Origin: Ariolimax columbianus
Lineage: Eukaryota > Mollusca > Gastropoda > Stylommatophora > Arionidae
NCBI GenBank assembly: GCA_036924085.1
Contig: JAVGWX010000011.1
Location: forward strand, 39,022,970-39,086,969
Direction of reading: 5' to 3'
DNA: 64,000 nt
Below are positions 2,836 to 59,125 of this stretch, one piece after another (the first letter of the stretch is position 1; each line of letters begins with the position of its first letter). The notes beneath the pieces were generated by a model, which saw nothing but the letters and a program-made list of their open reading frames with translations, did not search any database and was not told the DNA's origin. The position numbers and the translations under genes were made by a program.

Positions 2836-3280
2836 CCCAGACAAAACTGTGCGTTAAAATATGTGTTTCTTTATAAACTATTCCGATCGTACAGCATGCT
2901 AGGCATTCAGTGAAATGTATCAGATTGCAGCAATCAACTCAGTGTCAATTTTGACAAGCTGTCAGAAGAAAGCAACGCCTACCTAAAGCAAGTTTAACTC
3001 ACTACGAGATCAATAATATTGTTATGGGCGTATCTATCAAAGTTGAATACAGGGTTTCTTGGACAAAGTCACTTATTCCTACCGTGTGTGCCTGACAGTG
3101 GCATAGCAGTATCTGTTCGCGACAGTAACTTAAGACTTGTGGCATTCTCCTGATATCACTTTTGGGAGTGCTCAATATTAGATAGGCAATCATCACATTT
3201 CCTTCTTTCCACGGGTCACATACGATAACAATGGCATTTATTAATTATATAAACGGTTTGAACTAACGCTACATGTACGT
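2836..3280. other. No recognised feature
   Basis: AT-rich sequence with short chance frames only. Nothing recognisable before the TGACC-type tail of the next LINE. Confidence 0.5.
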
Positions 3281-3843: not shown

Positions 3844-4665
3844 GTACGAAGGCGCATTGAAAAGATTTACCTCAAACGTCATAGCTATAACAACAGTGTC
3901 CAGAGTCATGTGCCACGTATGTAAAAGTAAACTCGGGTGAAATGGCTTTAGGGGCATGTGGTGGCATGCGCCTGAAGCGTGATGCATGCGCACAGCGATT
4001 AGTAAAATGGCGTATTAACATGGAAATACGATTTAAACAGCGTGTTGACAGCGGGAAGATGCTTACCCATCGTCATGCATCGAAGATTGACAGCGGTATA
4101 TGGTTACTTCTGTGTAGATGTCATTACTGTCAGGGGGTGGACACGGACTGTAACAGTCGACAGATCAGCAAACGAAGAACCTGCGTGACAAGGCTCGCAG
4201 TGGGCGACCGAGCACACCTGTGGAAGCAAGCGGGCCACCATTCACACATGTGAAAGCAAGCGGGCCACCGATCACACCTGGGGATTCACAACAACACACT
4301 CCGGGGACGAACTGATTCATACAATCGCCATGACAAGCAGACATATATCCCAGCAATGCGCGTATGATTTCGGTTGAGCGAGTCCATACCCAGCTTGTGT
4401 GTAGGAAAGTGAGCGCGAGATGGGTCCCTCCACATGGCGACGCACGCAATTCTTCATCACGACAATGCTCGCCCACACACGAGTCGACAAACATTTCACG
4501 GCACCAATCGTACATCCCCGATCTTGCACCTTTCACTTTTGTCTCTGCCTGAGGCTGAAGAAACACGTCAAGGATCACCGTTAGGCATGTAGACCAGGAA
4601 TAATTAAGCTGAGCGTAAATGTTTTCGGGAAAGGCGTCTGATTTTTTGTTATTTTTATCCATGTG
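3844..4665 (+). pseudogene. Degenerate mariner-like transposase copy
   Basis: Three frames together show mariner landmarks in the right order: KARSGRPS near 4190, ISVERVH and RKVSARWVP near 4360-4430, the HHDNARPHT motif carrying the second catalytic aspartate near 4455-4485, and a C-terminal LKKHVK-like segment near 4555. A 5' terminal motif TACGAAGGCGCATTG starts at 3844. Mariner transposases cut and paste DNA using a DDD catalytic triad. Many indels and stops show this copy is inactive. It directly abuts LINE family G downstream. Confidence 0.8.
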
Positions 4666-4669
4666 ATTG

Positions 4670-5105
4670 TTGTCGCTTGCTATGACCTTCGGCGAAGGAT
4701 ACAGGCCTTGGAGATGAGATGTTTCCGAAGACTTTTAAAAGGCACGTACAAAGATCGAGTTACAAATGAGGAAATGCGAGATAGAATTACAACAGCAATA
4801 GGCCCTTTTGAAGACCTCTTGGCAACTGCCAAAAGAAGGAAACTCGCTTGGTGCGCGTCATATATCGAGATTAATAGGTCTTGCTAATACGATCCTCCAC
4901 GGAAAGGTGCAAGGCCAACGACGAAGAAGCCGTCCCAAAAAGAGGTGGGAGGACAACATAAAAGAATGGACCAATCTCCGACCAGAAGAGGCTCAGGCAG
5001 CGGCTGCTGACAGAGAAGTGTGATGTGGTGTTGTGAGGACGTCTTCATGTGTGCCCCAACGACCTCACCGGTTACGGGATGACCTGACCTAACCTGACCC
5101 ATGTG
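4670..5105 (+). pseudogene. LINE family G 3' end, plus copy
   Basis: The plus strand encodes RRRIQALEMRCFRRLLKGTY, FEDLLATAKRRKLAW, then after a frameshift near 4855 GLANTILHGKVQG, PKKRWEDNIKEWTNLRPEE and ADREV. The 3' end is CCTGACCTAACCTGACCC, the same pentamer tail as the copy at 3281-3780. It is a 5'-truncated insertion placed right after a mariner remnant. Confidence 0.9.
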
Positions 5106-6215: not shown

Positions 6216-6367
6216 TATCTTTTTTCCCGGCGGCAATTCTTACCATGGGACTGACCTTTACCTTAACAGTGAATGACCTGACATCAGTCATGGACTCATA
6301 GCTGGCTGCTTGCATCACGATTACCGGACCACACCTGGCCAATAGCCTTTTCTATCTCCAAATGGGA

Positions 6368-20159: not shown

Positions 20160-21095
20160 TAATAATAATAATAGCTGTCCATCGTTGTCGATGAGGACCG
20201 CCGACATCATCGTTGTCGATGAGGACCGCCGACATCATCCTTGTCACATATTTCCCTGTTGGGTGTGGGGGCGTATGTGGCTGAACAAGCCAATGCGAGC
20301 ACGAAAACATCTGCTACATAGCGGGCACACGAGGTTTGTAGAAGGGCATGGTGTTCCCGCTGCTCGGGATTTCCACGTCTCGCGTCTGCTCTGGGCTTTC
20401 ACAACACGGTCGTCTTCACCGGCAGCTACACTCGATTTGACTGCGCTACTCCAGTCAGATCTGTTTTGCGCAAGACATTCCCAGGTGTCGATGTCTATCT
20501 GGCAACTTTTTAGTGAGTCTTTCAGACCGTCTTTAAAACGTTTCTTTGGTCGTCCTCTCTCGCGCCACCCCTCTCTCAGCTAGCCGTAGAGAAGCTTCTT
20601 TGGGAGTCGCTCGTCTGACATACGAACGAGGTGTCCGGCCCATACTAGTCGTGCTTTTTCTAGCAGTGCATGGATGTTGGGCATGTTAGCCCTCGAGAGA
20701 ACCTCGATGTCAGTGACACGATCTTGCCATCGGATGTGGAATATTCGCCTCAGGCAACCTGTGTGGAAGTGGTTTAACCTCCTTGCATGTCCAGAGTATG
20801 CAGTCCAGCTTTCGCAAGCGTATAGTAGGGTTGGAATGATGGTTGCACGGTAGACTTTGAGTTTGGTCTTGACGCTGATGCCACGACGTGCCCAGACCAT
20901 CGAGCGCATTCTACCAAAGGCTGTGCTGGCCTTTGCTATTCTGCTTGCCACCTCATCGTCTAGGCTGACAGATCTCGACAGCGTGCTGCCCAGATATATA
21001 AATTTGTCTACGGCATTTAACCTCTGCCCGCTGACTGTAGTCTCTGGTTTTGTGTACGGCATGCCTGGTGCTGGTTGGTAGATTATGTAGTGTCT
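20160..21095 (-). pseudogene. LINE RT C-terminus with zinc finger, well preserved
   Basis: This is the best-preserved LINE end in the window. The minus strand reads about 270 codons in one frame from 21085, with a single internal TAG at about 20580. Motifs in order: YQPAPGM, DKFIYLGSTLS, IAKASTAFGRM, YACESWT, LRRIFHIRWQDRVTD, VWAGHLVRMSDERLPK, then after the stop GRPKKRFKDGLKDSL, WECLAQNRSDWSSAV, and a CxxC...H finger (CPLCSRCFRARIGLFSH). These belong to the reverse transcriptase end of a non-LTR retrotransposon. The 3' end carries a 28-bp direct duplication (20181-20236) and an ATT-rich tail. It is 5'-truncated and so inactive alone. Confidence 0.9.
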
Positions 21096-21374
21096 TATTA
21101 ACCAGTATAAAGACGTTATTATCTGGATGCGGTCATTTCGCTCTGGACTACCTGAGTCCAGTGGCACTTTACTATACCTGCTAGAGATAGCCATGCGATG
21201 GAAGAGATAACCTGGCGATCTAGTATATCTGTTGTCAGTGTGTTCATAATAAGTGTCCGTAATAACGTCATGGCTCGAGTATTGTGTTGTCCCACTAAGG
21301 CTGCATCATGATTCAGTGTGGGACGGGAGATGACTACAGCTTACTACCAAACTTAAGGTTTATGCGGCAGTTGT
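21096..21374. other. Short CR1-tail match, otherwise unassigned
   Basis: AACCAGTATAAAGACGTTA at 21100 is identical to the CR1-like 3' tail but only 19 bp long. The rest is unassigned. Confidence 0.35.
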
Positions 21375-21600: not shown

Positions 21601-21639
21601 TATGCAGTTGTACTACCAACTGTTATATCCGTTTGTATC

Positions 21640-22271
21640 TGGGGTAGTTGTCTCGCCGCAGCGACTCAATTTCAACCAGTGTTCGTAAAGCGATCTCAGT
21701 CCCGCCAGGCGGAGCGATAGCGCGGGCTTGCGGAAAACGCTCGCCTGCCTTTCCCCGTAGAGCGAATTGGGTGCGGTTTGTGGTAGTGGCTCCTCCACCG
21801 AGGTGCGCTCGTCTGGTCCGTATCAGGAAACGTGGTCCGTCCGTGGTGATTTATCTAAGGCTTATAGCAGAGCTCGACAGTACGTCTCGCTGGTGGTCCG
21901 ACTCTCGCAAAGAGCTTGTGACCGGCAAATGGAAAGCAGGAATCGTTGCCTCGAGGCCCTGCGTTCTCCTACGGAGAAGAGCAGGCCGGCAAGCCAAATT
22001 GTCTCTAGTCCCAGTGAAATTCATCGACGAGGTCGTTGGGATCCGTTCTGCACAGAGCGCTGCCATCCCTCCTCGAGCGAGCCCGGTCGGTCGGTCGTCT
22101 GGTGCGTGTGGGAGGCCCCGTCAGGCGGTCCTAGGTCGACGGAGTGAGGGACGGGTGGAACAACCGTCCGTCCGTCCCGTCAGTCGGTCCCTGCGGCCGT
22201 CGTCCCAGTGAGGCTTTTTACACACCCTTCCTCCGCCGACCGGTGTTTGCTGTACGTACGTCTCCGACAGA
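21640..22271 (+). other. Probable 5' ETS remnant of an rDNA unit
   Basis: This GC-rich stretch contains CGGTCGGTCGGTCG-type runs and lies immediately upstream of the 18S start without a break in composition. External transcribed spacers have this character. It contrasts with the AT-richer surroundings. The identification is by position and composition only. If correct, the 18S copy came from the rDNA locus or from unprocessed pre-rRNA, not from mature 18S rRNA. A 187-codon open frame here (21648-22211) is likely a GC-rich chance frame. Confidence 0.55.
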
Positions 22272-23438
22272 TATCTGGTTGATCCTGCCAGTAGTCATAT
22301 GCTTGTCTCAAAGATTAAGCCATGCATGTCTAAGTTCACACTGTCTCACGGTGAAACCGCGAATGGCTCATTAAATCAGTCGATGTTCCTTAGATGACAC
22401 GATCCTACTTGGATAACTGTGGCAATTCTAGAGCTAATACATGCTTACCAAGCTCCGACCCTCGCGGAAAGAGCGCTTTTATTAGTTCAAAACCAATCGT
22501 CGTTTCCCCTCGCGGGGTTGCGGCGTCCCCACTGGTGACTCTGGATAACTTTGTGCTGATCGCATGGCCTCATGTGCCGGCGACGCATCTTTCAAATGTC
22601 TGCCCTATCAAATGTCGATGGTACGTGACATGCCTACCATGTTTGTAACGGGTAACGGGGAATCAGGGTTCGATTCCGGAAAGGGAGCATGAGAAACGGC
22701 TACCACATCCAAGGAAGGCAGCAGGCGCGCAACTTACCCACTCCCGGCACGGGGAGGTAGTGACGAAAAATAACAATACGGGACTCTTTCGAGGCCCCGT
22801 AATTGGAATGAGTACACTTTAAACCCTTTAACGAGGATTTTTTGTAGGGCAAGTCTGGTGCCAGCAGCCGCGGTAATTCCAGCTCCAATAGCGTATATTA
22901 AAGTTGTTGCAGTTAAAAAGCTCCAAGTTGGATCTCAGGCGCAGGCGGGCGGTCCGGCTCGCGCCGGTTCACTGCCCGTTGTCTCCTGCCCTACCGTCTG
23001 CCGGCTCTCTCCCACGGGTGCTCTTCGCTGAGCGTCCTGGGTGGCCGGCGCGTTTACTTTGAAAAAATTAGAGTGTTCAAAGCAGGCCTCGGCTGCCTGA
23101 ATAATGGTGCATGGAATAATGGAATAGGACCTCGGTTCTATTTTGTTGGTTTTCGGAACTGGAGGTAATGATTAACAGGGACAAACGGGGGCATTCGTAT
23201 TGCGGCGTTAGAGGTGAAATTCTTGGATCGCCGCAAGACGAGCTACTGCGAAAGCATTTGTCAAGAATGTTTTCATTAATCAAGAACGAAAGTCAGAGGC
23301 GCGAAGACGATCAGATACCGTCGTAGTTCTGACCATAAACGATGCCGGCTAGTGATCCGCAGGAGTTGCTTCGATGACTCTGCGGGCAGCTTCCGGGAAA
23401 CCAAAGTGTTTGGGTTCCGGGGGAAGTATGGTTGCCAA

Positions 23439-23487
<49 letters not shown>

Positions 23488-23511
23488 GCGGCTTAATTTG
23501 ACTCAACACGG
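22272..23511 (+). rRNA. 18S rRNA: 18S (SSU) rRNA, 3'-truncated, probable pseudogene
   Basis: The start TATCTGGTTGATCCTGCCAG is the conserved SSU 5' end with one change. Further landmarks include AAGCCATGCATGTCTAAG, GTGCCAGCAGCCGCGGTAAT (530 loop, about 22859), GTGAAATTCTTGGAT (23214) and AAACTTAAAGGAATTGACGG (about 23444). About 1,240 nt of a usual 1,850 nt are present. The match stops abruptly after ACTCAACACGG, so the last third (decoding site, 3' minor domain) is missing. Departures at normally invariant places, such as GCTCCAAG for the expected GCTCGTAG after the 530 loop and a small insertion near 22570, support a pseudogene. The V4 region is gastropod-like. The real rDNA array must be elsewhere. 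Confidence 0.93.
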
Positions 23512-23548
23512 CCAACACTGAAATGACTGACATGCCGAGACCACTTTC

Positions 23549-23640
23549 CTTGGGTCTAATATGGAACTGGTGCTGGATTTAGACCCTCAGAAATCTGGGG
23601 TTATGCCTCCTGTGGCTCGGTTGGTCTGCATCCAGTGTTT
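23549..23640 (+). rRNA. 28S rRNA: 28S rRNA 3'-domain fragment, module 1
   Basis: GTCTAATATGGAACTGGTGC and TGGATTTAGACCCTCAG correspond to the 28S stretch shortly upstream of the sarcin-ricin loop (CTAATAGGGAACGTGAGCTGG type). The piece follows the broken 18S end after about 40 unassigned bases. Confidence 0.7.
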
Positions 23641-23642
23641 GA

Positions 23643-23705
23643 TAAAGGAATTGACGGAAGAGCACTATCAGGAGTGGAGCCTGAGGCTAAAATTGACTAA
23701 ACACG
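23643..23705 (+). rRNA. 18S rRNA: Second, diverged 18S fragment
   Basis: AAAGGAATTGACGGAAGAGC followed by GGAGTGGAGCCTGAGG repeats the end of the main 18S copy (23447-23511) with about ten differences and breaks off at the same place. Confidence 0.85.
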
Positions 23706-23745
23706 CCAATAGTGTAGAATGACTGTCAAAAGAGAGCACCTTCGA

Positions 23746-23880
23746 TGGGTCTAATAGTGAACTTGTGCTGGTAATAGACCCACGGAAGACAGGTCAGTCT
23801 CTAAACCCCCAAATGAAAGAGCGCCTGCTACGGTAATCTGGTCTTCACCCTGCAGAAATCGCAGGCTCCAGAAACTGGGC
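23746..23880 (+). rRNA. 28S rRNA: 28S rRNA 3'-domain fragment, module 2
   Basis: CTAATAGTGAACTTGTGCTGG and GACCCACGGAAGACAGGTCAG match the 28S stretch before the sarcin-ricin loop. A degenerate form of the following region (CTACGGTAATCTGGTC, ATCGCAGGCTCCAGA) continues to about 23876. Confidence 0.72.
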
Positions 23881-23925
23881 CATTGACAAACTAAAAGCCC
23901 TCTATTGATACGGTCTGGCTAATAT

Positions 23926-24125
23926 TGAACTGGTGCTGGAAATAGACCCTCTGAAGACAGGTCAGCTTTACCCTACTAAAGACAATGCTTTGCTACGGTA
24001 ATCCTGCTAAGCCCGAGAGGAGCCGCAGACATTTTGGTTCACGTACTAGGCGGATAAGCCAACGGTTCGAGGTGAGGGATTACGGCCGAACGCCTCTAAG
24101 CCAAAAATCCCGCCCAAAAGCAGCC
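23926..24125 (+). rRNA. 28S rRNA: 28S rRNA 3'-end fragment, module 3
   Basis: This is the longest 28S piece. It holds ACAGGTCAGCTTTACCCTAC, TACGGTAATCCTGCTAAGC, a degenerate sarcin-ricin loop CCCGAGAGGAGCCGCAG, and CGAACGCCTCTAAGCC with ATCCCGCCC near the 28S 3' end. The sarcin-ricin loop would be AGTACGAGAGGAAC in a working gene, so this copy is defective. Confidence 0.85.
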
Positions 24126-24437
24126 CAGCACGAATGCAAAGGAAGGCTTCGACATGGTGGGGATATCGGGGTCACGCTCCAGCCCCGCCCGATCAAGCCG
24201 CAGAATGAGGTCTCTGCCGTCCGCTGATAAAAGCGGGTGGGAAGCTGCTCGATATTCACCCCATACGGCGATGAGGAATGAAATCATTTGTAGAAGACTT
24301 AGTTCTCGGGCGGGTGCCCTAAGCAGTAGATCAGCTACCTCACTGCGAACTGCTGAGACTCAACCCTTGACCATGTCCGCTCCCTAGGCGGACAATATCT
24401 CCGTGCAAGACTAGGCTTGTCACCTGGTCAAATGCAC
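24126..24437. other. Spacer between 28S fragments
   Basis: The stretch carries TTCGACATGGTGGGGATAT and GCCCGATCAAGCCGCAG, echoed after module 4 as TACGACATGGCTGGGCCG and GCCCGATCGAGCCGCAGG. It is therefore part of the repeated rRNA-derived module, perhaps the last bases of 28S or the spacer beyond it. Confidence 0.5.
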
Positions 24438-24565
24438 TATTTCGAGAGGAATCACAGGTCGCTGACATTTGGTCCACGTGCTTGGCTGATAAGCTACCAT
24501 CTGAGGGATTACGGCCGAACGCCTCTAAGCCAGAATCCCGCCCAAAATCTCAGCACCGCTGAGAT
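24438..24565 (+). rRNA. 28S rRNA: 28S rRNA 3'-end fragment, module 4
   Basis: CGAGAGGAATCACAGG, GACATTTGGTCCACGTGCTT, GGCTGATAAGCTACCATCTG and CGCCTCTAAGCCAGAATCCC again match the 28S 3' end. About 15 bases between GGCTGA and AAGCTACC of a normal 28S are deleted. Confidence 0.85.
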
Positions 24566-24985
24566 GGGAGGCTACGACATGGCTGGGCCGTGTGTCCCGG
24601 CCCGATCGAGCCGCAGGAATGCACCTGGTAAAATGCACTCCTTCCTTGCTCTTTGCATCTGTCTGCTATCAGTCATTCCAATGGACGCAGAAGAGATGCA
24701 GTCCAGCGGACACTGCACCTCCTGTCCTATGGTGACAAGCTCCCTGGTGGCGGGGAATGCTAGGCGTACCATCACTGCAGATGAGCCGAGAAAATAGAGC
24801 GAGCAAAAAGATACCTCACTCATATGCATATGCTACGTTTCTGGCAGGACGTGACGATCCTGGGAAAAAGTCACACTGGACTGCCTCTCTTCCGGGATAG
24901 TACAAACTAGTACATAGTCCATCATATCATTGCCAAACGCTATAGACACGAGTAGGGAAGACTCGATAGTCCTGCAAGACAACTT
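24566..24985. other. End of rRNA-derived block, then unassigned
   Basis: The first 60 bases repeat the 24145-24200 spacer. Beyond 24625 nothing is recognised. A small frame near 24632 starting MHSFLALCICLLSV resembles a signal peptide but lacks any other support. Confidence 0.4.
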
Positions 24986-24989
24986 CCCA

Positions 24990-25180
24990 AGAGAGACAAC
25001 TCTGACCAAAAACAACTGCTGCCTTGCAGTTAGGCTGGGGACAGCCAAAGGCTAAGGAGGGCAACCCTACAGAAACGCCTGTTGAAATCGGATGCACTGA
25101 GCCACTGGCTAACAAATTAAATCAGTGCAACGTAAATATCGCTGTAAACAGCGTACGATGAAGAAGAAGATATCCGTTTG
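24990..25180 (+). repeat. Family A-like fragment with GAA tail
   Basis: GGCTAAGGAGGGCAACCC, GAAATCGGATGCACTGAG and TAAATATCGCTGTAAAC are diverged family A words in the right order. The fragment ends in GATGAAGAAGAAGA. Confidence 0.55.
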
Positions 25181-25184
25181 TGAA

Positions 25185-25915
25185 CCTTAACTGCGTGCAG
25201 TTAAGGAGCCAAGAAACTTGACCCACTTCCATCTGGCCTGACTAAGAAAACTGCTGAACATAAAATGGCAAGATAGGATCGCAGATGTAGAAGTTTACTC
25301 GCGGGCTGGCACGGCAAACATCCACACATCTTTGAGCAAATCGCAGCTTAGATGGACTGGCCATGTTCTCCGCATGTCAGATGGACTGGCCATGTTGTCC
25401 GCATGTCAGATGGACTGGCCATGTTGTCCGCATGTCAGATAGACTGGCCATGTTGTCCGCATGTCAGATGGACTGGCCATGTTGTCCGTATGTCAGATGG
25501 ACTGGCCATGTTTTCCGCATGTCAGATGGACTGGCCATGTTGTCCGCATGTCAGATGGACTGGCCATGTTGTCCGCATGTCAGATGGACTGGCCATGTTG
25601 TCCGCATGTCAGATGGACTGGCCATGTTGTCCGCATGTTAGATGAGTGACTTTCAAAGAGAATATTCTATGGCGAGCTTGAGTCAGACAAGCTAGCTCGC
25701 GGCGACCAACTGCAGCGTTACAGAAACAGTCGGTAAACCTCAATGAAGAACTGTGACATTGCCCTTGAAACTGGTAGAAAATTTCTGCTGATCGCTCTGC
25801 CGGGCGTAGAAAAATGTCAGATGACACGGTGCATATGGAGCAGATACGATTCGTGGAAGCTGCACGGATATATGCCACACAAAAGACAAGAGACGAGTTA
25901 CCTCCGTCTGACGGT
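25185..25915 (+). pseudogene. LINE RT C-terminal fragment with internal array
   Basis: The plus strand encodes LRKLLNIKWQDRIADVEVYS and LSKSQLRWTGHVLRMSDG, then a tandem array of that last motif, then after frame changes FYGELESDKLARGDQLQRY. It is related to the LINE at 20160-21095, where the same GHxVRMSDE and YG blocks occur once. Here the YGEL codon is GAG, where the 20580 copy has TAG. Confidence 0.85.
25350..25639. repeat. Minisatellite, 29-bp unit, 10 copies, LINE-derived
   Basis: The unit AGATGGACTGGCCATGTTGT plus CCGCATGTC repeats ten times with very few changes. It encodes the RWTGHVxRMSD motif of the host LINE. Because 29 is not a multiple of three, all frames rotate through it and long artefactual open frames result. 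Confidence 0.95.
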
Positions 25916-42304: not shown

Positions 42305-42835
42305 GTATCTTCTTCTTCTTCTTCGTACGCTGTCAGATGTCAACTTGAATTTGTTCGAAGAAAGCAGCTGTCATCCTGAGGCTGTCGACACTGCCATAGA
42401 GCTTGTCTAGTGCTGGCACTTGTGATGGCCACATGTGCTTTCTCTGGTCCTCGTATGTCGGGCAATTTTGCAGCAGATGCTCAGGGGTCATTTTCCCTGT
42501 ACCACATGTGCATTCGTCAGTGCCACCTATCTTCAGTTTATTGAATAGATGGTACCTCAGTCTGTTGTGGCCTGTGCGGAGTCTGAAGACCACGACCTGC
42601 TCTCTTCTGTTTAACTGGTAGTAGGCATCATTCTTTGTGTAGCCAGTATGTTCTGTTTCCCATTTGGCCACGTATCTGTCCCTAATAAACCTGTTGGACT
42701 CTTCGTATGTCACAGTAGTTTCTGGTTGTGGTAGTCTTGCACCTTCTTTTGCCAGTCTGTCTGCCTCCTCGTTGCCTTGAATGTTACAGTGGGATGGAAC
42801 CCACTGTACCACTACTCTTTTTGGTGCGGACTGCT
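42305..42835 (-). pseudogene. RNase H-type LINE 3' end, second copy
   Basis: A 159-codon minus-strand frame encodes WVPSHCNIQGNEEADRLAKE (end of the RNase H domain, with its conserved H and D), then VVVFRLRTGHNRLRYHLF, KIGGTDECTCGTGKMTPEHL, and DKLYGSVDSLRMTAAFF. RNase H in these elements degrades the RNA template after first-strand synthesis. The tail is (GAA)n at 42309-42326. It is an open but 5'-truncated copy; RNase H residues upstream of WVPSH are missing. Confidence 0.92.
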
Positions 42836-56524: not shown

Positions 56525-59105
56525 TGTTCCTGCTATATACCTCTATATCTTGCCTCGCTCTTGCTATATTTCTTTCTCTTGCCTCGCTCTTACTATATGA
56601 ATCTGCCTCGCTCTTGCTATATTTCTTTCTCTTGCCTCGCTCTTACTATATGAATCTGCCTCGCTCTTGCTATATTTCTTTCTCTTGCCTCGCTCTTACT
56701 ATATGAATCTGCCTCGCTTTTGCTATATTTCTTTCTCTTGCCTCGCTCTTGCTATATATCTTTCTCTTGCCTCGCTCTTACTATATGAATCTGCCTCGCT
56801 CTTGCTATATTTCTTTCTCTTGCCTCGCTCTTGCTATATTTATTTCTCTTGCCTCGCTCTTACTATATGAATCTGCCTCGCTCTTGCTATATTTCTTTCT
56901 CTTGCCTCGCTCTTACTATATGAATCTGCCTCGCTCTTGCTATATTTCTTTCTCTTGCCTCGCTCTTGCTATATTTCTTTCTCTTGCCTCGCTCTTACTA
57001 TATGAATCTGCCTCGCTCTTGCTATATTTCTTTCTCTTGCCTCGCTCTTGCTATATTTCTTTCTCTTGCCTCGCTCTTGCTAAATTTATCTGCCTCGCAC
57101 TTGCTATATTTCTTTCTCTTGCCTCGCTCTTGCTAAATTTATCTGCCTCGCACTTGCTATATTTCTTTCTCTTGCCTCGCTCTTGCTATATTTATTTCTC
57201 TTGCCTCGCTCTTGCTAAATGTATCTGCCTCGCTCTTGCTATATTTCTTTCTCATGCCTCGCTCGTACTATATGTCTCTGACTCGCTCTTGCTATATTTC
57301 CTTCTCTTGCCTCGCTCTTGCTATATTTATTTCTCTTGCCTCGCTCTTGCTAAATGTATCTGCCTCGCTCTTGCTAAATTTCTTTCTCTTCCCTCGCTCG
57401 TACTATATGTCTCTGCCTCGCTCTTGCTATATTTCTTTCTCTTGCCTCGCTCTTGCTATATTTATTTCTCTTGCCTCGCTCTTGCTAAATGTATCTGCCT
57501 CGCTCTTGCTAAATTTCTTTCTCTTGCCTCGCTCGTACTATATGTCTCTGCCTCGCTCTTGCTATATTTCTTTCTCTTCCAGCAATATGTCGTTATCTCT
57601 GTCACTGCCTGTCTGTCTTGTTCCTGCTATGTACCTCTCTATCTTGCCTCGCTCTTGCTATATTTCTTTCTCTTGCCTCGCCATTACTATATGTCTCTGC
57701 CTCGCTCTTGCTATAAAATTCTTTCTCATGCCTCGCCATTACTATATGTCTCTGCCTCGCTCTTGCTATATTTCTTTCTCTTGCCTCGCCATTACTATAT
57801 GTCTCTGCCTCGCTCTTGCTATATTTCTTTCTCTTACCTCGCCATTACTATATGTCTCTGCCTCGCTCTTGCTATATTTCTTTCTCTTGCCTCGCCATTA
57901 CCATATGTCTCTGCCTCGCTCTTGCTATATTTCTTTCTCTTGCCTCGCCATTACTATATGTCTCTGCCTCGCTTTTGCTATATTTCTTTCTCTTGCCTCG
58001 CCATTACTATATGTCTCTGCCTCGCTCTTGCTATATTTCTTTCTCTTGCCTCGCCATTACTATATGCCTCTGCCTCGCTCTTGATATATTTCTTTCTCAT
58101 GCCTCGCCATTATTATATGTCTCTGCCTCGCTCTTGATATATTTCTTTCTCATGCCTCGCCATTACTATATGTCTCTGCCTCGCTCTTGCTATATTTCTT
58201 TCTCTTGCCTCGCCATTACTATATGTCTCTGCCTCGCTCTTGCTATATTTCTTTCTCATGCCTCGCCATTACTATATGTCTCTGCCTCGCTCTTGCTATA
58301 TTTCTTTCTCTTGCCTCGCCATTACTATATGTCTCTGCCTCGCTCTTGCTATATTTCTTTCTCATGCCTCGCCATTACTATATGTCTCTGCCTCGCTCTT
58401 GCTATATTTCTTTCTCTTGCCTCGCCATTACTATATGTCTCTGCCTCGCTCTTGATATATTTCTTTCCCACAAGCCTCGCCATTATTATATGTCTCTGCC
58501 TCGCTCTTGATATATTTCTTTCTCATGCCTCGCCATTACTATATGTCTCTGCCTCGCTCTTGCTATATTTCTTTCTCTTGCCTCGCCATTACTATATGTC
58601 TCTGCCTCGCTCTTGCTATATTTCTTTCTCATGCCTCGCCATTACTATATGTCTCTGCCTCGCTCTTGCTATATTTCTTTCTCTTGCCTCGCCATTACTA
58701 TATGTCTCTGCCTCCCTCTTGCTATATTTCTTTCTCATGCCTCGCCATTACTATATGTCTCTGCCTCGCTCTTGCTATATTTCTTTCTCTTGCCTCGCCA
58801 TTACTATATGTCTCTGCCTCGCTCTTGCTATATTTCTTTCTCTTGCCTCGCCATTACTATATGTCTCTGCCTCGCTCTTGCTATATTTCTTTCTCATGCC
58901 TCGCCATTACTATATGTCTCTGCCTCGCTCTTGCTATATTTCTTTCTCTTGCCTCGCCATTACTATATGTCTCTGCCTCGCTCTTGCTATATTTCTTTCT
59001 CTTGCCTCGCCATTACTATATGTCTCTGCCTCGCTCTTGCTATATTTCTTTCTCTTGCCTCGCCATTACTATATGTCTCTGCCTCGCTCTTGCTATATGT
59101 ATCTC
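56525..59105. repeat. Satellite-like array, 53-bp unit, about 49 copies
   Basis: The unit is CTCTTGCTATATTTCTTTCT then CTTGCCTCGCCATTACTATA then TGTCTCTGCCTCG. The left third (to 57560) uses a CTCTTACTATATGAATCTG variant with half-unit insertions. An interruption at 57575-57650 repeats the words found just before the array (CAGCAATATGTCG, CACTGCCTGTCTGTCTTG). The right two thirds are highly uniform. Frames of up to 510 codons exist because the period has no in-frame stop in any phase; I do not consider them genes. Confidence 0.97.
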
Positions 59106-59125
59106 TCTTCCAGCAATATGTCTGT

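Follow-up and report, generated by a model that had tools for sequence, protein, structure and literature searches.

How did pieces of 18S and 28S ribosomal RNA (rRNA) sequence come to be joined in an odd order in contig C11 of Ariolimax columbianus? We analyzed a window of 64,000 nucleotides (nt) (C11:39022970-39086969; coordinates without a contig number are positions in this window) from an assembly of 2.29 Gb in 401 contigs, designated by C numbers; L numbers designate individual retrieved sequences or loci. The initial annotation had placed an rRNA chimera here and had offered an rRNA-derived repeat, a recombination product of ribosomal DNA (rDNA), or template-switched reverse transcription as its source. 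The chimera proves to belong to a dispersed retroelement family with very many copies, of which it is one; it is not a local rearrangement.

One copy of a dispersed retroelement family

The junction between 18S and 28S sequence is not confined to this locus. A 201-base junction probe gave 40 scored places at 99-100% identity across many contigs, and a 30-base junction pattern, with at most 1 mismatch, occurs at 4,823 places genome-wide, compared with 0 for the reversed control. Searching the genome for the junction, as the annotation had proposed, thus yields a repeat family rather than a single locus, and its repeat option was right. These places are not all separate insertions, because they include a regular series on C1 (~103.6-105.0 Mb) in which, among the matches listed, the junction copies lie mostly ~57 kb apart and all on the plus strand; the series is a tandem array of a large unit with one element copy each. 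The copies that we analyzed are the 40 best-scoring of 1,146 candidates from the probe, a set biased toward young, window-like copies, with the junction common to all by selection (20 retrieved at 9 kb, 9 at 3.2 kb, 10 as 601-base stretches round the expected start, and the window copy).

Comparison of the 20 loci of 9 kb each defined a common unit, 21637 to 25169 in the window, which replaces the extent of 22272-24620 claimed at first. This unit is one complete insertion of 3,533 nt with a 12-bp target-site duplication and a GAA-type tail. Target-site duplications of 8-16 nt are present in 14 of the 17 copies with both ends read, the exceptions being L046, L054, and L055. For these 14 duplications, 0-15 of 300 controls were equally long (15 for L042, 9 for L051, and 6 for L048), and some of the matches take in 1-3 element bases. 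The copies have a common 3' end and a GAA-type tail, with scattered 5' truncation points, which is the pattern of target-primed reverse transcription; 22 of the 40 junction copies are 5' truncated, 5 of these judged solely by absence of the leader in a 601-base stretch. They show no rDNA site specificity, being dispersed and having unrelated target duplications. A single rDNA recombination event or an assembly error, both raised at the outset, was rejected on the spread of the probe matches over many contigs, the 4,823 junction places, and the different flanks and target-site duplications of the dispersed copies.

The features of the window copy are as follows.

21625-21636 (+): target-site duplication, 5' copy (ATATCCGTTTGT), an exact 12-nt repeat of 25170-25181; as long in 1 of 300 random-position controls
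21637-25169 (+): whole non-autonomous retroelement copy, 3,533 nt, ends common to other copies
21637-22271 (+): leader of 5' external transcribed spacer (5'ETS) from the presumptive RNA polymerase I (Pol I) start, host context TATATT followed by ATCTGGGG; host rDNA L060 from 5570
22272-23511 (+): fresh 18S nt 1-1240 (1-1236 counted from TGGTTG); Rfam RF01960; 10 substitutions in 1,236 relative to host 18S
23512-23555 (+): degenerate 18S remnant past a ~15-nt gap, layer A; score reached by 0 of 2000 shuffles
23556-23625, to 23640 (+): 28S piece A, 65% to L001
23643-23705 (+): older, second 18S piece, layer B, 88.9% to host 18S
23751-23837, to 23899 (+): 28S piece B, 71% to L001
23919-24376 (+): 28S piece C, up to the 28S 3' end; Rfam RF02543 positions 3005-3399/3401 for 23984-24376; 60-62% to 28S references
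24443-24565 (+): 28S piece D, 65-67% to references
24620-25149 (+): element tail region, present in 27 of the 30 copies searched for it, with 85% identity between the two subfamilies; precedes the LINE reading frame in autonomous copies
25153-25169 (+): 3' terminal GTACGATGAAGAAGAAG tail; other copies end in a similar tail
25170-25181 (+): target-site duplication, 3' copy, repeat of 21625-21636

Rfam matches on the plus strand to eukaryotic small-subunit rRNA (22275-23419, 914 bits) and to the 3' end of large-subunit rRNA (23984-24376, 58 bits) bear out the earlier claim of 18S and 28S 3' pieces in a single orientation. The count of four 28S pieces and a second 18S piece also holds, based on internal repeats and on alignment to contaminant eukaryotic rDNA: pieces A, B, C (23919-24372), and D are 60-71% identical overall to L001 and L004, which are contaminant eukaryotic 28S ends. 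Direct repeats pair 23448-23510 with 23643-23705 (89%), 23556 with 23751 and 23919 (78-89%), and 24073 with 24502 (87%), and the 18S-28S join does occur twice in the window copy. The break in 18S at CAACACG was half right, as fresh, host-like 18S stops at 23511 but degenerate 18S continues past a ~15-nt gap to ~23555. The layer B copy of this remnant was not significant (score reached by 253 of 2000 shuffles). We read the degenerate layers (18S remnant, 28S A, older 18S, 28S B, C, and D) as older rRNA sequence carried by the element, presumably acquired in successive rounds. Overall, the initial annotation was partly supported; it had missed where the element begins and ends, the GAA tail, the LINE reading frame that follows this block in other copies, the match of the 5' end to the presumptive rRNA start, and how the fresh 18S leader contrasts with the old rRNA layers.

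Fragments of long interspersed nuclear elements (LINEs) beside the element were rejected as parts of it, as they lie outside the common ends and the target duplications. Read by eye, these are 3'-end pieces of LINE open reading frames (ORFs) at 20580-21194 (-) and 25200-25850 (+), in opposite orientations; a 29-bp tandem array (25350-25644) lies within the coding remnant of the plus-strand piece.

Autonomous copies and element class

Of the 20 long loci, 10 were examined for LINE ORF frames, and 8 of these have them downstream of the rRNA block (L039-L041, L044, L046, L049, L050, and L055). In L055, Pfam identified Exo_endo_phos_2 (7.9e-18), RVT_1 (1.1e-39), and RNase_H PF00075 (3.1e-14) domains. 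The combination of endonuclease and reverse transcriptase (RT) domains, 5' truncation, tail, and target duplications makes the autonomous copies apurinic/apyrimidinic endonuclease (APE)-type non-long-terminal-repeat retrotransposons, or LINEs. The C-terminal RNase H of L055 makes them RNase H-bearing LINEs, putatively of the I-like clade. Among the best 120 protein matches listed, the only named relatives come from Littorina saxatilis and Batillaria attramentaria, whose RNase H-bearing LINEs are similar in the RT-RNase H part at 44-47% identity (named) and 66% (P0001), in keeping with a molluscan genome.

L041, which has a target duplication, is 7,157 nt long, counted from its first base through its tail. 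Its reading frames are broken, and ahead of its ORF, where a separate ORF1 would lie, this one degraded copy has only short open frames. The window copy and its close relatives have no ORF and are non-autonomous; the window copy would have to depend on the enzymes of the LINE. It does not have the makeup of a short interspersed element (SINE), that is, a short element with an RNA polymerase III promoter head, as it is 3.5 kb long and headed by 5'ETS-18S; ARAGORN found no tRNA in the window, and A and B boxes were not scanned. Elsewhere in the window, an ORF for an RNase H end (42333-42812, minus strand) is similar by eye to the LINE family of the element.

A host-like leader on a diverging body

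We compared the leader with the host rDNA unit L060, used from position 3202 onward, on contig C222, where units lie ~12.28 kb apart. Window 21637-23511 matches L060 5570-7444 at 98.4%, covering 5'ETS and 18S nt 1-1240; the stretch originally called 5'ETS-like is the real 5'ETS of the host. Directly ahead of the base that matches the first base of the element, the host has TATATT. The 5' ends of 18 of the 40 junction copies fall within 3 nt of this presumptive +1, and the other 22 start downstream. By alignment, 15 start at +1, L052 at +3, L068 one base before, and L069 three before, with +1 and the preceding base indistinguishable where the flank ends in T. Host spacer upstream of this point (L060 3202-5569) had no match in any stretch retrieved for the 40 copies. 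Because element 5' ends fall at this base and its context is promoter-like, judged by a consensus that we take to apply here, the first base of the element would be the Pol I start.

Genome-wide, the first 20 bases of the element occur at 4,551 places (control, 1), and a 23-base promoter motif occurs at 123 places, 98 of the 100 listed being on the small rDNA contigs C50-C253. Patterns from the 18S start and the 18S middle occur at 6,321 and 6,923 places, counts that include rDNA units and any pseudogenes. In the first 65.8 Mb of C1, this junction follows 1.6-2.6 kb after 21 of the 100 listed +1 places; of 44 junctions there, 21 reach back to +1. All 30 copies that were aligned to the host unit, each picked by the junction, have the other end of the fresh part at L060 7444 (window 23511), which coincides with the start of the old ~15-nt gap. 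Two further links to host rDNA were rejected: the tail region is not host intergenic spacer, as it had no match in L060 from 3202 on, and a similarity between host 5'ETS and the LINE ORF start is attributable to chance (reached by 31 of 300 shuffles).

The leader and the rest of the element have different histories. We assigned copies to two subfamilies, sub1 and sub2, by similarity of their tails to that of the window copy (the L055 tail match is to a second, adjoining copy). Identity between subfamilies is 85.0% in the tail and 87.0% in old rRNA, compared with 98.1% in 18S, the same as 18S identity within them (98.3 and 98.0%). Columns diagnostic at a threshold of at least 80% number 0 of 1,242 in 18S, 29 of 668 in 5'ETS, 50 of 957 in old rRNA, and 74 of 556 in the tail; strictly fixed diagnostic columns number 0 in 18S, 18 in 5'ETS, and 28 in the tail. 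Copies covering 90% of a segment numbered 17 versus 10 for the tail, 16 versus 9 for old rRNA, and 6 versus 3 for 5'ETS. Relative to host rDNA, no 18S site is altered in more than 3 of 30 copies, and 5'ETS differences from the host are common to many copies, up to all those covering a site. L037 joins a sub1 body to sub2-like 5'ETS variants. Since 18S is without diagnostic columns while the body diverges, the 18S leader seems to be supplied afresh by the host. Thus, the 18S part is apparently of host type at each insertion, and the body evolves separately.

Residence in rDNA and competing explanations

On C67, a small contig of rDNA, one copy was found to reside downstream of an rRNA promoter. 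Promoter distances in this contig are irregular (11.2, 16.3, 17.0, 18.6 kb, and more, in addition to 12.15 kb), and one promoter is inverted. The promoter motif occurs without mismatch at 99039-99061 (minus strand), and the element junction follows 1,849 nt from +1 by coordinates, with 60 of the 60 bases ahead of it identical to host 18S. Farther on, 95590-95520 matches the ORF start region of L041 (90%) and 93900-93830 matches the RT region (96%). An ORF-bearing copy therefore lies behind a promoter in this contig, its leader, at 99046-97270, being placed by coordinates.

We consider it probable, from these sequence comparisons, that LINE masters reside in rDNA, are transcribed from the rRNA start, and give rise to promoterless copies with a leader throughout the genome. 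Masters with APE endonuclease, RT, RNase H, and a GAA-type tail would lie in the rDNA array behind the host rRNA promoter, and these would be the active copies. Pol I would initiate at the rRNA start and read 5'ETS, 18S nt 1-1240, and then the element, and the RNA would be copied into non-specific sites by target-primed reverse transcription. Full-length daughters would begin at rRNA +1, with a host 5'ETS-18S leader and no promoter, and truncated daughters would lose part of it. Concerted evolution in the array may keep 5'ETS and 18S like those of working rDNA, so that new copies all receive an up-to-date leader; the parts specific to the element (tail, ORF, and the older 18S/28S layers) meanwhile diverge. 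The window copy would be a daughter of a non-autonomous lineage that keeps the leader, old layers, tail, and 3' end. Residence of LINE masters in rDNA would account for the 5' ends, the missing promoters, the fresh 18S, the drifting 5'ETS, and the diverging body.

Several observations weigh against this account. C67 holds the only rDNA-resident copy seen; 3 of 11 sampled rDNA sites, chosen for irregular spacing and not randomly, were read and gave 1 element and 2 intact 18S. Its join could be a misassembly or real ectopic recombination via the ~1.85 kb of near-identical leader. Outside the small rDNA contigs, a promoter at C10:58993495 has a LINE ORF (83% to L041) 1.84 kb past its start, so some masters could lie outside arrays. 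(Another, at C12:62836862, has 28S 3'-end-like sequence within 1.9 kb and may belong to an rDNA unit with an internal deletion.) Strictly fixed diagnostic columns number 0 in the old rRNA segment, and the 18S subfamily comparison is one of 9 versus 3 copies. The break common to the 40 copies is partly selection, because they were picked by the junction probe. Finally, 79 of the 100 listed +1-starting copies on C1 are without this junction, so further fusions or diverged junctions exist, and other rRNA-led element types probably exist as well.

Template switching at a fixed site, with RT stalling near 18S nt ~1230, switching by homology to host pre-rRNA, and copying to its 5' end, is an unlikely but serious competitor, as it too would account for the fresh 18S and for 5' ends at +1. 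The 18S break lies 8 nt from a base that we take to be the RT-blocking hypermodified m1acp3-pseudouridine. In L074 (C1:102334400-102337300), host 18S from nt 1221 to its 3' end and the start of internal transcribed spacer 1 (ITS1) are joined ahead of the junction, the ITS1 being partly confirmed against L075; rRNA jumps or joins, or transductions, thus do occur. As a subfamily, this 18S-ITS1 fusion was rejected, being a single copy. Variable jumps could account for most of the listed C1 +1 copies without the junction, and template jumps are described for R2 (PMC3414825) and chimeras for L1 (PMC13174262). However, jumps usually vary, and here 4,823 places have one break to the base (the aligned 30 of 30 having been picked by junction); switching also leaves the promoter-18S-element copy in C67 unexplained.

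The low divergence of the leader from the host (~1% in 18S) and the thousands of copies would also fit a scenario in which an element acquired 5'ETS-18S once, not long ago, and has since multiplied on its own, driven by a promoter inside the leader. This is improbable, since the subfamilies are 13-15% apart in old rRNA and tail, yet their 18S is without diagnostic changes. A leader swap between subfamilies through recombination is possible; the L037 mix of sub1 body and sub2-like 5'ETS points to exchange, which also counts against one capture. A plain rRNA pseudogene, local rDNA rearrangement, or assembly artifact would suit the odd order of the pieces and the dispersed 18S-like sequences on chromosomes, but it can be dismissed almost entirely, being refuted by the 4,823 junction places, the different flanks with target-site duplications, and the common 3' end and ORF.

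Returning to rDNA-resident masters, we are evenly divided on a stronger version of this reading, in which only rDNA copies reproduce, the rDNA renews promoter, start, 5'ETS, and 18S leader each generation, and the dispersed daughters are sterile, a division like that of germ line and soma. The non-hereditary share of a full-length daughter would then be a quarter (autonomous) to half (non-autonomous). It is pure speculation that the 18S leader serves the RNA, for example by binding the pre-ribosome in place of a cap.

Known systems share parts of this arrangement. R2 is a LINE in 28S genes whose RNA is cut out of a 28S cotranscript by a ribozyme of the element; it makes template jumps, and it has non-autonomous relatives with internal deletions, called SIDEs (PMC3414825). 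R8 in hydra 18S and R9 are further rDNA-resident R elements (PMC5035012). R2/R1, R8, and R9 are likewise LINEs resident in rRNA genes, with deleted non-autonomous relatives in R2, whereas here insertion is non-specific, thousands of copies are dispersed, and upstream 5'ETS-18S is kept on daughters. By the features tested, the family is a LINE and not a site-specific R element, although it may live like one. For L1, PMC13174262 reports 18 chimeras with 28S and two insertions in which the RAP1GDS1 promoter was co-opted. Such 5' transductions and chimeras also join upstream host sequence or rRNA to a LINE; as described there, they are few, separately formed loci, in contrast to a family with one leader, a common break, and host-like 18S. 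The same paper names SINEs with 5S-derived and 28S-derived heads, which are also non-autonomous retroelements with an rRNA head; the present element differs in its 3.5-kb length, a head from the presumptive Pol I start, and autonomous partners with the same head. Our literature search, which left subscription papers largely uncovered, found no description of a LINE family with a 5'ETS-18S leader.

If this account holds, a high-copy, non-site-specific LINE would use the host rRNA promoter and start, retain a pre-rRNA leader, and have rDNA as its reservoir. The host-like 18S leader would provide a clock for each insertion, read from its private changes relative to 18S that hardly varies, and the rRNA start would be marked almost to the base by full-length copies. 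Translation and retrotransposition of an uncapped, Pol I-type transcript would become testable. Caution would be needed in rDNA copy counts and 18S barcoding, because much of what resembles 18S in such a genome may consist of element copies.

Among other sequence collections, scans of viral contigs gave 0 matches for 18S and 1 for 28S, and a phage search gave none. Two PLSDB "plasmids" contain 18S-like sequence: the Acinetobacter baumannii entry NZ_CP050525.1 (L056) is a eukaryotic 18S gene, the end of which we presume to be sequencing adapter, and in the Campylobacter hominis entry NZ_CP082873.1 (L057) one stretch is 80% similar to the region at the start of 18S. The window itself also has a long tandem array at 56734-59109, with 44.6 copies of a 53-bp unit.

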